Shown here: positions 11,511-29,131 of the stretch, piece after piece | Numbering within the stretch: position 1 is the first letter of the stretch | How the letters are laid out: the number at the start of each line of letters is the position of its first letter | Assembly: GCF_003386665.1 (NCBI RefSeq) | Contig: NZ_QTUB01000001.1 | Span: 248,001-312,000 of the forward strand | Length of the DNA: 64,000 nucleotides | DNA from: Xenorhabdus cabanillasii | GTDB lineage: Bacteria > Pseudomonadota > Gammaproteobacteria > Enterobacterales > Enterobacteriaceae | Direction: 5' to 3' | The notes under the pieces: model-generated | What the model was told of the DNA's origin: nothing | Databases searched by the model: none | The model's input: only the letters and a program-made list of their open reading frames with translations | Made by a program: the position numbers and the translations under genes

Positions 11511-11774
11511 TTAATAGTTTAATTTAATCGCAAAGATGGCATGTATTTTGCTTTTCTATTTTTAGGTACGTGTTCCCTGACGGTGCTTCATAGATATTCC
11601 GCAAATAATGATTGATCACGATCTATGACTGGCTTTACCAATGTGTAAATTTCCTACATTGTAGGCATCTTTTTGTTGACTAGATACTTATTGAGTGAGT
11701 TTGATGTTAAAGGAAATATAAGAGGTCAATGAATACTAGATGACCTATTGTTATTTTTGCAGAGAGTTATTATT

Positions 11775-12863
11775 GTGAATATTCCCAGCATAGCTGCCGA
11801 AATCTTATGCGTATTTATATTTTCATTTATATTTTTGTTTGTGGCGCGTAAGTTAGCACAGCAGATCGGACTTGTTGATAAGCCTAATTATCGTAAATGT
11901 CATCATGGAGTAATACCTCTGGTAGGGGGAATATCTATCTTTTTTGGGGTTTGTTTTGGTTTTGCCATAACAAAAGAATTTATCCCTCATAAATGGGTGT
12001 ACTTATCTTGTGCGGGGGCATTAGTTTTTGTTGGTGCATTGGATGATCGCTTTGATCTTAGTGTAAAAATCCGGGCAACAATCCAAGCTTTAGTAGGCAT
12101 TAGTATGATGTATTTCTCTGGGCTTAAGTTAGAAAGTTTGGGGGATGCGTTTGGACCATGGGAGATGGTGTTAGGGCCATTTAGCTATGTGGTTACACTG
12201 TTTGCGGTTTGGGCTGCCATTAACGCTTTTAACATGATGGATGGTATTGATGGTTTATTGGGAGGATTGTCCTGCGTCTCTTTCGGTGCATTAGGTATTT
12301 TGCTTTATGAAAGTGGCAATACTGCTTTGGCATTTTGGTGCTTTGCGTTTATAGCTGGGATATTGCCTTATATTTTTCTTAATCTGGGCCTGCTTGGTAA
12401 ACGCTTCAAAGTCTTTATGGGGGACGCCGGAAGTACACTGATTGGTTTCACCATCATCTGGCTGTTGACTGAGGTGTCTCAAGGGGAAAATCGTTCTATT
12501 AACCCGGTGACAGCATTATGGATCATTGCTATCCCATTGATGGATATGGTTGCGATTATGTACCGCCGACTGCGCAAGGGCATGAGTCCATTTTCACCGG
12601 ATCGTCAGCATATTCATCACTTGATCATGCGCTCAGGTTTTACTTCCCGTCAGGCATTCGTCTTAATTACCGTGGCGGCAGCTTTGCTGGCTGGAGTGGG
12701 CATTATAGGTGAAAGGTTAAGTTTTGTGCCTGAATGGGTAATGTTGGCATTATTTTTGCTTGCATTCATATTGTATGGTTGTTGCATCAAAAGAGCATGG
12801 CGGGTCGCTCGTTTTATCAAACGGTGCAAACGTCGGATGCGTCGGGTTGCAAGCCATCATTAA
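11775..12863 (+). CDS. wecA: UDP-GlcNAc:undecaprenyl-phosphate GlcNAc-1-phosphate transferase WecA
   Basis: WecA makes lipid I of ECA by moving GlcNAc-1-P to undecaprenyl phosphate at the inner membrane. It usually also starts O-antigen chains. This polytopic protein shows the PNPT-family motifs GALDDRFDLSVKIRA, NAFNMMDGIDGLLGG and VFMGDAGSTLIGF, and the HIHH carbohydrate-recognition motif in SPDRQHIHHLIMRSGF. I chose the GTG at 11775 (362 residues) because the N-terminus VNIPSIAAEILCVFIF then lines up residue for residue with E. coli WecA, and AGAGAG lies eight bases upstream. A TTG at 11748 in the same frame would add nine residues. It is the first gene of the ECA operon. Confidence 0.96.
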   Translation: MNIPSIAAEILCVFIFSFIFLFVARKLAQQIGLVDKPNYRKCHHGVIPLVGGISIFFGVCFGFAITKEFIPHKWVYLSCAGALVFVGALDDRFDLSVKIRATIQALVGISMMYFSGLKLESLGDAFGPWEMVLGPFSYVVTLFAVWAAINAFNMMDGIDGLLGGLSCVSFGALGILLYESGNTALAFWCFAFIAGILPYIFLNLGLLGKRFKVFMGDAGSTLIGFTIIWLLTEVSQGENRSINPVTALWIIAIPLMDMVAIMYRRLRKGMSPFSPDRQHIHHLIMRSGFTSRQAFVLITVAAALLAGVGIIGERLSFVPEWVMLALFLLAFILYGCCIKRAWRVARFIKRCKRRMRRVASHH

Positions 12864-27032: not shown

Positions 27033-27109
27033 CGGCGAGTAGCGCAGCTTGGTAGCGCAACTGGTTTGGGACCAGTGGGTCGGAGGTTCGAATCCTCTCT
27101 CGCCGACCA
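27033..27109 (+). tRNA. proM: tRNA-Pro(TGG)
   Basis: 77 nt with encoded CCA. The acceptor CGGCGAG / CTCGCCG pairs perfectly and the anticodon loop GTTTGGGAC carries TGG. Last of the operon, followed within 15 bp by a terminator. Confidence 0.97.
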
Positions 27110-27123
27110 GATTATGAAGAAAC

Positions 27124-27147
27124 AGCCCTGCCGAAAACAGGGCTTTT
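27124..27147 (+). terminator. Terminator of the tRNA operon
   Basis: AGCCCTG (27124-27130) pairs with CAGGGCT (27138-27144), loop CCGAAAA, followed by TTT and a pyrimidine-rich stretch. Confidence 0.85.
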
Positions 27148-27328
27148 CTCGTTGTACCCAACAGAAAATCTTCTCTTTTTCTTGCCATTTCTTGCCATTT
27201 CTTTCCTTTCTTGTAATTAATTATTTTGAAATTAATTGTTTCTATATGGTTAAAATTATATTAACTTTTTGTTTTTAAGGTTATTTAATTTTCAGTGTTG
27301 TATTTCAACGACAATCCATACCCTCATG

Positions 27329-27346
27329 TGTCTCCAATAAGAGACA
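27329..27346 (+). promoter_or_regulatory. Candidate GlrR (QseF) activator site 1 upstream of glmZ
   Basis: TGTC-N10-GACA, exactly the reported GlrR binding consensus, about 210 bp upstream of the sigma-54 promoter. The inner bases also form the dyad GTCTC / GAGAC. Confidence 0.75.
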
Positions 27347-27348
27347 TT

Positions 27349-27361
27349 TAACTAATTGATT
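27349..27361 (-). promoter_or_regulatory. Candidate IHF site
   Basis: On the minus strand AATCAATTAGTTA matches the IHF consensus WATCAANNNNTTR without mismatch. It lies between the two GlrR-type sites. IHF is known to assist glmY/glmZ sigma-54 promoters. Confidence 0.5.
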
Positions 27362-27392
27362 AAACTTATCTATGTCTAACATGTGGAATGGG

Positions 27393-27410
27393 TGTCTCAA
27401 ATAAGAGACG
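27393..27410 (+). promoter_or_regulatory. Candidate GlrR (QseF) activator site 2 upstream of glmZ
   Basis: TGTC-N10-GACG, one mismatch from TGTC-N10-GACA. It shares 16 of 18 bases with site 1 and starts 64 bp after it. Confidence 0.68.
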
Positions 27411-27537
27411 GTATTTAGCGTGCTTTATGAAAAGGTGGCATATCAGCCATACTTCGGCCATATAGTCTGGGAGACATTCTCTTATGATTGTTGCTGTAAC
27501 TTGATATTAGGTTAGGAAGTTAGTGATATAAGAAAAT

Positions 27538-27554
27538 TGGCATGAAAAGTGCAT
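27538..27554 (+). promoter_or_regulatory. Sigma-54 promoter of glmZ
   Basis: TGGCATGAAAAGTGCAT carries the -24 GG (27539-27540) and the -12 GC (27551-27552) with exactly ten bases between. It differs little from the RpoN consensus TGGCACG-N4-TTGCA. The predicted start, about 12 bp beyond the GC, coincides with the conserved first base of GlmZ. Confidence 0.8.
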
Positions 27555-27564
27555 TATTAAATTT

Positions 27565-27775
27565 GTAGATACTCATCCTACTCCTTATGACAGCATAGCT
27601 TCATAAACCTCAGGATGATGTAGAGCTAATTGCCAGTGCCTATGGTCCACGTTATAGATGAGTAAGCGTATGGTCTTTTCATCACAAACCGGACACGACG
27701 TTGAGTGAGGCACTATACCGTCTGTAGACCTGATTGTATTTATACACCTGTCTTATTTGACAGGTGTTTTTTTTA
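27565..27775 (+). ncRNA. glmZ: Small regulatory RNA GlmZ (SraJ)
   Basis: A 211-nt non-coding segment begins GTAGATACTCAT and contains TTCATAAACCTCAGGATGA and GACGTTGAGTGAGGCAC, which closely follow E. coli GlmZ as I recall it. The second block (27691-27714) is where GlmZ pairs with the glmS leader to activate glucosamine-6-phosphate synthase translation with Hfq. Full-length GlmZ is inactivated by RapZ-guided RNase E cleavage close to this site. Position between the proM tRNA operon and hemY matches E. coli. The sigma-54 promoter and two GlrR-type sites upstream indicate control by GlrK-GlrR. The 3' end is a strong terminator hairpin. Confidence 0.88.
27744..27775 (+). terminator. Intrinsic terminator of glmZ
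   Basis: A 9-bp perfect stem ACACCTGTC / GACAGGTGT (27744-27752, 27759-27767) is followed by a run of eight Ts. Confidence 0.92.
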
Positions 27776-27925
27776 TCTCTTGTTTAGCGTTTTCTTACTC
27801 AGTCCCTTCATTTACTTCCTTAATATCTCTTTTGTCTTTGTATGTATCGAAATTTTTACCATGATTAACAATTCGGATTAAGAATTATTGTTAACCATGG
27901 CTAATTTTAATTTAAAGGAAAATAT

Positions 27926-29131
27926 TTATGCTTCTGTGCCACTCTCACGTTTCAGTGTCAGCATAAAGCCTTTAGTGCGTATTTGAGCGGCTTCTTCGCG
28001 TTTGTGCAGTCTGTCCAGTGCATCGGCAAGCCAGGCGTAATCGTGAGCATCAGGACGTTGTGCGAGAGCTGCTTTAAAGGCGCTTTCTGCTTTTGCCCAT
28101 TCGCCATGGCGCAATGCCACTTGCCCCAATGTACTGTTAAGTAAAGGTGTTGCACCGTGTTGTTTCAACAAATGTGAAAGCGATTTTTGCACAGCCTCAG
28201 CATTATCCGCCTTTAAGTGAGGGAGTAACAGTAACAGTCGTTCATCGTATTGCTGTTTTAGCCCATTGAGAATAATTTGCTGTGCAGTTTCATGATCGTT
28301 ACATTCAATCAGATGTTCAGCCATGGCAACCTGTAATGCAATGTCATTACGAACTTTGCGGCTTTGATCTTTCCACCATTCTTTCAGTCCAGCACTGCCT
28401 TTTTCTGCCATGATTTGATTCATCAAGCCGATATAAGCTTGCTGACGCAATTGAGCCACATGTTCTTCATCATGCAGATCAATTTTTGTTATTGAAGGTA
28501 AAATATCAATCAGGGATTGGTAGGCACCTGAACGTGTATATGCCTGCTCAGCCAGCCGCAATACTTCTGTATGTCGTGGCGCTTGATTGAGTAACTTATC
28601 CACACCGTTACGGGCTGCATGAACTTCTCCCTGTGCTAATTGGATGCGCACACGGGTAATATCGACAGGTAGTTGATCTTTATCGGCTACTTCTGCGGCA
28701 CGCTCAATATATTGATTGGTGCGAAAATAATCACCACGTTGTTGGGCAGCTTCAGCAGCAAGCAGATAGTTAACGACAGGGTTTTCCGCATGATCAACAT
28801 TGCGGGTCATTAAGTGTTCAACCTGCTTAAAATCCCCTTCAGCAAGCTTGAGCAATGCCTGCTTGGTCTGTAACCGAGCCCGGTTGCGCTTATATCCACC
28901 AAAGATCCAGCTATGGGTAAAAGTACCGGTACGTTTTAATCTGCGGTAACACCAACCGATGAAAATCAGCAGGAATTGCAGCAAGAGGAACATAATCACC
29001 AAACCGGTAACGCTGGTAGTGATATCGTAATTGTCTGTCTGGATAAGAACATATCCCTGATGCCCGGATAACAAAGGGCCAAGCACAACACCTATGATAA
29101 GGATGATGAACAGCAATAATATTTTTAGCAT
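27926..29131 (-). CDS. hemY: HemY, inner-membrane TPR protein of the hem operon
   Basis: A 401-residue protein (E. coli 398) with two N-terminal membrane segments (about 1-20 and 41-62) and a long cytoplasmic or periplasmic helical part with TPR-like repeats, for example ALLKLAEGDFKQVEHLMTRN and LRHGEWAKAESAFKAALAQR. Its exact role is unsettled. It is conserved with hemX downstream of hemCD and is linked to tetrapyrrole metabolism. It starts two bases after the hemX stop, with GGAGGG as ribosome-binding site. Confidence 0.94.
   Translation of the reverse strand: MLKILLLFIILIIGVVLGPLLSGHQGYVLIQTDNYDITTSVTGLVIMFLLLQFLLIFIGWCYRRLKRTGTFTHSWIFGGYKRNRARLQTKQALLKLAEGDFKQVEHLMTRNVDHAENPVVNYLLAAEAAQQRGDYFRTNQYIERAAEVADKDQLPVDITRVRIQLAQGEVHAARNGVDKLLNQAPRHTEVLRLAEQAYTRSGAYQSLIDILPSITKIDLHDEEHVAQLRQQAYIGLMNQIMAEKGSAGLKEWWKDQSRKVRNDIALQVAMAEHLIECNDHETAQQIILNGLKQQYDERLLLLLPHLKADNAEAVQKSLSHLLKQHGATPLLNSTLGQVALRHGEWAKAESAFKAALAQRPDAHDYAWLADALDRLHKREEAAQIRTKGFMLTLKRESGTEA

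Follow-up and report, generated by a model that had tools for sequence, protein, structure and literature searches.

We find that a 64,000-nt stretch of the Xenorhabdus cabanillasii genome (hereafter, the window) carries what is, with a probability of roughly 93%, a true glmZ gene, whose transcription would be driven by a GlrR-activated sigma-54 promoter and whose product would serve the glmS circuit; this reading best explains the observations as a whole. GlmZ is an ordinary bacterial small RNA that aids the making of the first envelope building block. Sigma-54/GlrR control of glmZ has precedents in relatives such as Yersinia and, judged by the sequence features reported here, is unsurprising in this genus. 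Across the loci compared, the GlrR-type sites keep fixed distances from one another and stand at a highly variable distance from the promoter.

The glmZ gene and the other genes of the circuit

The preliminary description of this region had placed GlmZ between proM and hemY, and a search with Rfam covariance models bears this out. RF00083 matches the plus strand with 137.9 bits (E = 1.1e-33; gathering score 60) and is covered from model position 1 to 214 of 214, so that the match is full length (Table 1). The only other above-threshold Rfam matches in the window are four tRNAs, which ARAGORN calls as tRNA-Arg, -His, -Leu and -Pro. The predicted RNA folds better than its shuffled versions (z = −3.1), of which 1 in 200 is as good, and carries at its 3′ end an intrinsic terminator of nine pairs and a T run, as had been proposed. 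Because no open reading frame (ORF) of at least 60 amino acids in the ORF list of the window overlaps GlmZ, an annotation built from ORFs only would, as foreseen, leave the gene blank; the match confirms, in an insect-pathogenic genus, a regulatory RNA that such annotation would miss. Just past the 3′ end of hemY, an imperfect palindrome, CCATGATTAACAAT ... ATTGTTAACCATGG (27859–27900), was spotted by eye and is absent from the repeat-finder output; it is possibly the hemY terminator.

Table 1 Features of the glmZ region, by position in the window
Feature	Position	Strand	Details
Flanking tRNA-Pro (tgg)	27033–27109	+	ARAGORN
GlrR/QseF-type site 1	27296–27313		TGTTGTATTTCAACGACA; one mismatch; missing from the preliminary description
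GlrR/QseF-type site 2	27329–27346		Exact match to the pattern TGTC-N10-GACA
IHF-type match	27349–27361	−	AATCAATTAGTTA; exact to the consensus used; between sites 2 and 3
GlrR/QseF-type site 3	27393–27410		TGTCTCAAATAAGAGACG; one mismatch; 64 bp after site 2
Sigma-54 −24/−12 element	27538–27554	+	TGGCAT-N6-TGCAT; GG 27539–27540, N10, GC 27551–27552
GlmZ small RNA gene	27565–27773	+	RF00083; start predicted from the Rfam match
glmS-pairing block	27727–27737	+	GACCTGATTGT; GlmZ nt 163–173; predicted to pair with ACAATCAGGTT, which begins 61 nt upstream of the start codon of glmS
Intrinsic terminator	27744–27774	+	9-bp stem, then T run
Flanking hemY	27926–29131	−	Convergent to glmZ; HemY 717 bits, cut-off 608

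The genome, a single contig of 4,335,622 bases, contains a second RF00083 match of 58.3 bits, which is the GlmY locus. GlmZ and GlmY share the Rfam clan CL00011, and the RNA in the window might on that ground be a GlmY-like decoy or another member of the clan; this is exceedingly improbable, as a separate GlmY (RF00128, 137 bits) adjoins the histidine kinase gene, and the RNA in the window has RF00083 as its best match, contains the glmS-pairing block and lies between the tRNA cluster and hemY.

The genome also encodes further components of a GlmZ circuit. On one side of GlmY lies a region that we take to be purL, and on the other the genes follow in the order kinase, QseG (294 bits; cut-off 234) and GlrR (equivalog, 944 bits; cut-off 763). 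For the kinase, no NCBIfam equivalog scored above cut-off among the matches listed (25 of 80 families), and it is therefore named GlrK by its position. Sigma-54 (902 bits; cut-off 817) is encoded near RapZ (364 bits; cut-off 244), so that both glrR and rpoN are present, and glmS lies downstream of an ORF that is presumably glmU.

The glmY locus itself resembles the glmY–qseEGF locus of Proteus mirabilis, for which the available parts of PMC8745638 describe a glmY gene before the kinase gene, co-transcription of glmY with qseEGF, three QseF sites and a sigma-54 element. According to the same parts of that paper, which concern the promoter of glmY and not that of glmZ, the P. mirabilis promoter also has an overlapping sigma-70 site, and its GlmY lacks a Rho-independent terminator; here, by contrast, a highly stable hairpin of 13 bp, whose T tail is broken, stands after GlmY and before the kinase gene (L002:1729–1761, near 2374950) and is terminator-like in our scan.

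The sigma-54 element and a putative three-site enhancer array

For sigma-54, IHF and sigma-70 we used general consensus sequences, with assumed sigma-70 frequencies for scoring, and the GlrR/QseF site is TGTCN10GACA, as printed in PMC8745638. Upstream of glmZ, the −24/−12 element with GG-N10-GC spacing, the exact IHF match and the exact GlrR-type site with a near-copy exactly 64 bp later were all found, as had been described. The −12 GC is separated by 12 bases from the predicted start, which puts the element at −24/−12. Two GlrR-type sites had been listed; a third, with one mismatch, lies upstream of the exact one, and the feature thus begins 33 bp further left than had been described. Site 2 follows site 1 at 33 bp, and site 3 follows site 2 at 64 bp.

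Taken singly, these motifs are weak evidence. At up to one mismatch, TGTCN10GACA occurs 24 times in the window against 22 expected, with no enrichment, and genome-wide the exact pattern occurs 41 times per strand against 102 for a reversed control. The IHF pattern (13 matches against 5.3 expected) and the sigma-54 pattern (3 against 0.36) are over-represented in the window, although most of their matches fall elsewhere; the two other sigma-54 matches, to TGGCAYN6TGCWT, are at 11537–11553 and 12745–12761, both on the plus strand. The arrangement, by contrast, is strong and significant: at the observed site density, a hand calculation puts the expected number of three-site sets with gaps of 31–33 and 63–65 bp at about 3e-5 per window. 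The genome-wide count renders the exact pattern uninformative as a search for GlrR targets, and a scan for further targets was dropped. One close pair of sites away from glmY, 29 bp apart at 3075633–3075679 (L154:2134–2180; starts 3075633 and 3075662), stands directly ahead of an ORF with an apparent resemblance to TyrR; these sites may be TyrR boxes, and we do not count them as a GlrR target.

Of 128 glmZ loci, 125 entered the comparison of the array: a pattern scan of named genomes supplied 95, and relatives, together with the present genome, the other 30. Three loci were left out, one for want of a sigma-54 element (L003) and two for too short an upstream sequence (L036 and L050). As the 95 loci were preselected by a pattern that contains the sigma-54 element, and many species are present twice, the counts that follow are not independent. 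Sites 1 and 2 lie 31–33 bp apart in 110 of the 125 loci (site 1 with at most two mismatches; 28–37 bp allowed), and sites 2 and 3 lie 63–64 bp apart in 120 (58–69 bp allowed). An IHF-type match falls between sites 2 and 3 in 58 loci, invariably 20 bp from where site 2 begins; at the stringency used, the other 67 have none there. The 330-bp upstream regions of 124 loci hold on average 2.46 sites with at most one mismatch, whereas two control motifs average 0.07 and 0.27. Where preselection plays no part, among 30 related glmZ loci chosen without regard to the element, the −24/−12 element is present in 29. The sole exception is L003, which we take by its sequence to be E. coli-like; it belongs to the same RNA family and differs in lacking both a −24/−12 element and, within 330 bp, any GlrR-type site at one mismatch or fewer.

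The distance between the array and the promoter behaves differently. Measured between site 3 and the −24 element, it ranges from 70 to 235 bp across 122 loci (site 2 with at most one and site 3 with at most two mismatches); a value of 239 bp, from L057, whose site 2 has three mismatches, was kept out of this range. An alignment of 11 Xenorhabdus-group and two Photorhabdus loci has conserved islands at sites 1 to 3, in the IHF region and at the −24/−12 element, whereas the arm that links site 3 to the promoter (27411–27537) is poorly conserved. Most Xenorhabdus have an arm shorter than the present one by about 33 bp, and that of X. innexi (L075) holds a CATCATCGC-type tandem repeat. Helical phasing of the array–promoter distance was considered and rejected: with one value per group (29), the Rayleigh test at 10.5 bp gives p of about 0.2, and the p of about 0.02 obtained from all 62 distinct values comes from values that are not independent, with a period of 11.5 bp doing equally well or better.

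The same arrangement precedes glmY. In the present genome, three exact sites spaced by 32 and 63 bp precede glmY, together with a −24/−12 element of its own; the element occurs at all 18 glmY loci compared, and where the upstream sequence was long enough (17 loci), three sites are present at 15 and two sites at the other two (at most one mismatch each). The three-site arrangement recurs both at the glmY of this genome and at the glmZ of other genera. That the sites are chance matches, before a promoter unrelated to GlrR, would agree with the lack of enrichment of TGTCN10GACA by itself in window and genome. This explanation is nonetheless very unlikely, given that the fixed-gap array returns across genera and at glmY and that the arm beside it, unlike the array, aligns poorly. 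With its conserved spacing and variable arm, the array, as a putative GlrR enhancer, would lend itself to simple tests of enhancer geometry.

A possible sigma-70 contribution to glmZ transcription

The preliminary description had found no evident sigma-70 promoter, and at the start site this stands. The best sigma-70 score overlapping the glmZ start is 3.5, a value reached by 42% of 2480 random placements and thus within the range of chance, and a simple, stricter scan of 27110–27930 returned no promoter-like site (shuffle mean 3.4). Further upstream the statement is less apt, as higher sigma-70-like scores occur there. The peak under the looser scoring, 10.5, comes from the hexamers TTGAAA and TAAAAT (27226–27231 and 27251–27256), upstream of the enhancer; they are separated by a poor 19-bp spacer, and the score is the best of 341 placements, with no null for the maximum. 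A weak sigma-70 promoter further upstream of glmZ is possible, and the absence of a sigma-70 consensus does not prove the absence of sigma-70 transcription.

A mixed promoter, in which sigma-70 takes a share beside sigma-54, has several observations in its favour. CATTAT, a four-of-six hexamer, overlaps the −12 region of glmZ, and the upstream pair just described could contribute. Overlapping scores elsewhere are higher: the E. coli-like locus reaches 7.0 (7.03) and the glmY of the present genome 7.06, each attained by 7% of placements, and of 27 same-genus relatives, 12 have glmZ scores of 7.03 or more, 10 of them above the 95% null level. Across the family, a TATAAT match of at least five of six in one of four registers accompanies 70 of the 150 sigma-54-type glmZ elements among the matches listed; the present genome has none. 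At glmZ itself, the −35 partner in the best overlapping placement, ATAAGA, matches three of six positions, and this, with the chance-level overlapping score and the empty stricter scan, makes a mixed promoter here rather unlikely. The genus need not be uniform: with 12 of 27 relatives at the level of the E. coli-like locus, pure sigma-54 control may not be a genus trait, and a mixed glmZ promoter is possible in sister species. Similarly, glmY of the present genome may keep a sigma-70 share.

Given the lack of an evident sigma-70 promoter at the start, GlmZ is probably made at a low basal level in X. cabanillasii, unlike the constitutive E. coli GlmZ; if sigma-70 contributes nothing, GlmZ synthesis itself would be gated by GlrR, again unlike E. 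coli. A broader reading, to which we give slightly less than even odds, is that this lineage makes GlmZ without a basal sigma-70 supply, so that the activator RNA as well as its decoy GlmY would be produced on the command of GlrR, and that the enhancer of both genes is a rigid three-site module (gaps of about 32 and 63–64 bp, near three and six helix turns) acting over an elastic arm of 70–235 bp.

Predicted glmS pairing and relation to known systems

The proposed glmS-pairing block is supported as a prediction. It would form an 11-bp helix with the glmS leader, GACCUGAUUGU:ACAAUCAGGUU, containing one G-U pair. We compared the best gapless helix between GlmZ and the glmS leader in 31 genomes, leaving out three in which the start-codon pattern was unmatched (G001, G007 and G012) and one with no glmS match (G024); two more (G008 and G010) have no glmZ locus in the set. 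This helix or a variant of it, of 9 to 15 bp, is the best in 23 of the 24 analysable same-genus genomes, the present one included, and in one relative (G022) a compensatory double change preserves the pair. The best helix lies elsewhere in the remaining same-genus genome (G003) and in three genomes outside the genus (G030, G031 and G032), and in the present genome the runner-up is close (20.5 against 24.5). The comparison across relatives replaced an earlier measure, the duplex energy of the whole GlmZ and glmS leader regions, which was dropped; it was not significant, with 123 of 400 random window pieces as good.

Together, these elements are consistent with the following model. Envelope signals sensed by GlrK and QseG would lead to phosphorylation of GlrR, which would oligomerize on the array while IHF bends the DNA, and would then remodel sigma-54 polymerase at the −24/−12 element to start GlmZ near 27565. 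Acting on the copy of the array that belongs to glmY, GlrR would switch on that gene in parallel. GlmY would titrate RapZ, both being encoded in the genome, and GlmZ would thereby escape RNase E, pair with the glmS leader and open it, raising GlmS and in turn glucosamine-6-phosphate.

The promoter of glmZ takes different forms in known systems. In the available parts of PMC4585118 and PMC6602413, E. coli glmZ is given a single sigma-70 promoter, and PMC6602413 describes constitutive transcription with control by decay. Salmonella and others are reported to have overlapping promoters (parts of PMC4585118, PMC4773443 and PMC4098024); our locus shares with that form (PMC4098024) the RNA and the sigma-54/GlrR logic, but has no convincing overlapping sigma-70 promoter. 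For Yersinia pseudotuberculosis, parts of PMC4585118 and PMC4773443 describe sigma-54 promoters at both glmY and glmZ, activated by GlrR and accompanied by putative IHF sites, as shown in an E. coli surrogate. In Photorhabdus asymbiotica, homologues of glmY and glmZ are expressed (part of PMC4683029). In a literature search over a limited collection, no title among the matches listed concerned the Xenorhabdus glmZ promoter.

The likeness to Yersinia proposed at the outset is a fair comparison, although such control is not peculiar to that genus and is common among relatives. A pattern scan of named genomes found a sigma-54-type element before glmZ at 97 loci, in Xenorhabdus, Photorhabdus, Proteus, Providencia, Morganella, Yersinia, Serratia, Pectobacterium, Dickeya, Hafnia and others, and 154 of 295 family genomes have such an element. 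In a separate list of 295 genomes drawn in the same way, RF00083 scores above cut-off in 179, and some of these matches may be GlmY, since 10 of the second matches seen in relatives pass the cut-off. These comparisons support the view that sigma-54/GlrR control of glmZ is widespread and the sigma-70-only form of E. coli less common. Y. pseudotuberculosis, for which the primary study of the glmZ promoter is reportedly that of Gopel et al. (2011), resembles the present locus in combining GlmZ with a sigma-54 promoter, upstream GlrR sites and IHF-type sites. At four other Yersinia loci, sites 2 and 3 are present in all four and site 1 in three (at most one mismatch each), and the array–promoter distance is 161–162 bp, against 145 bp here.
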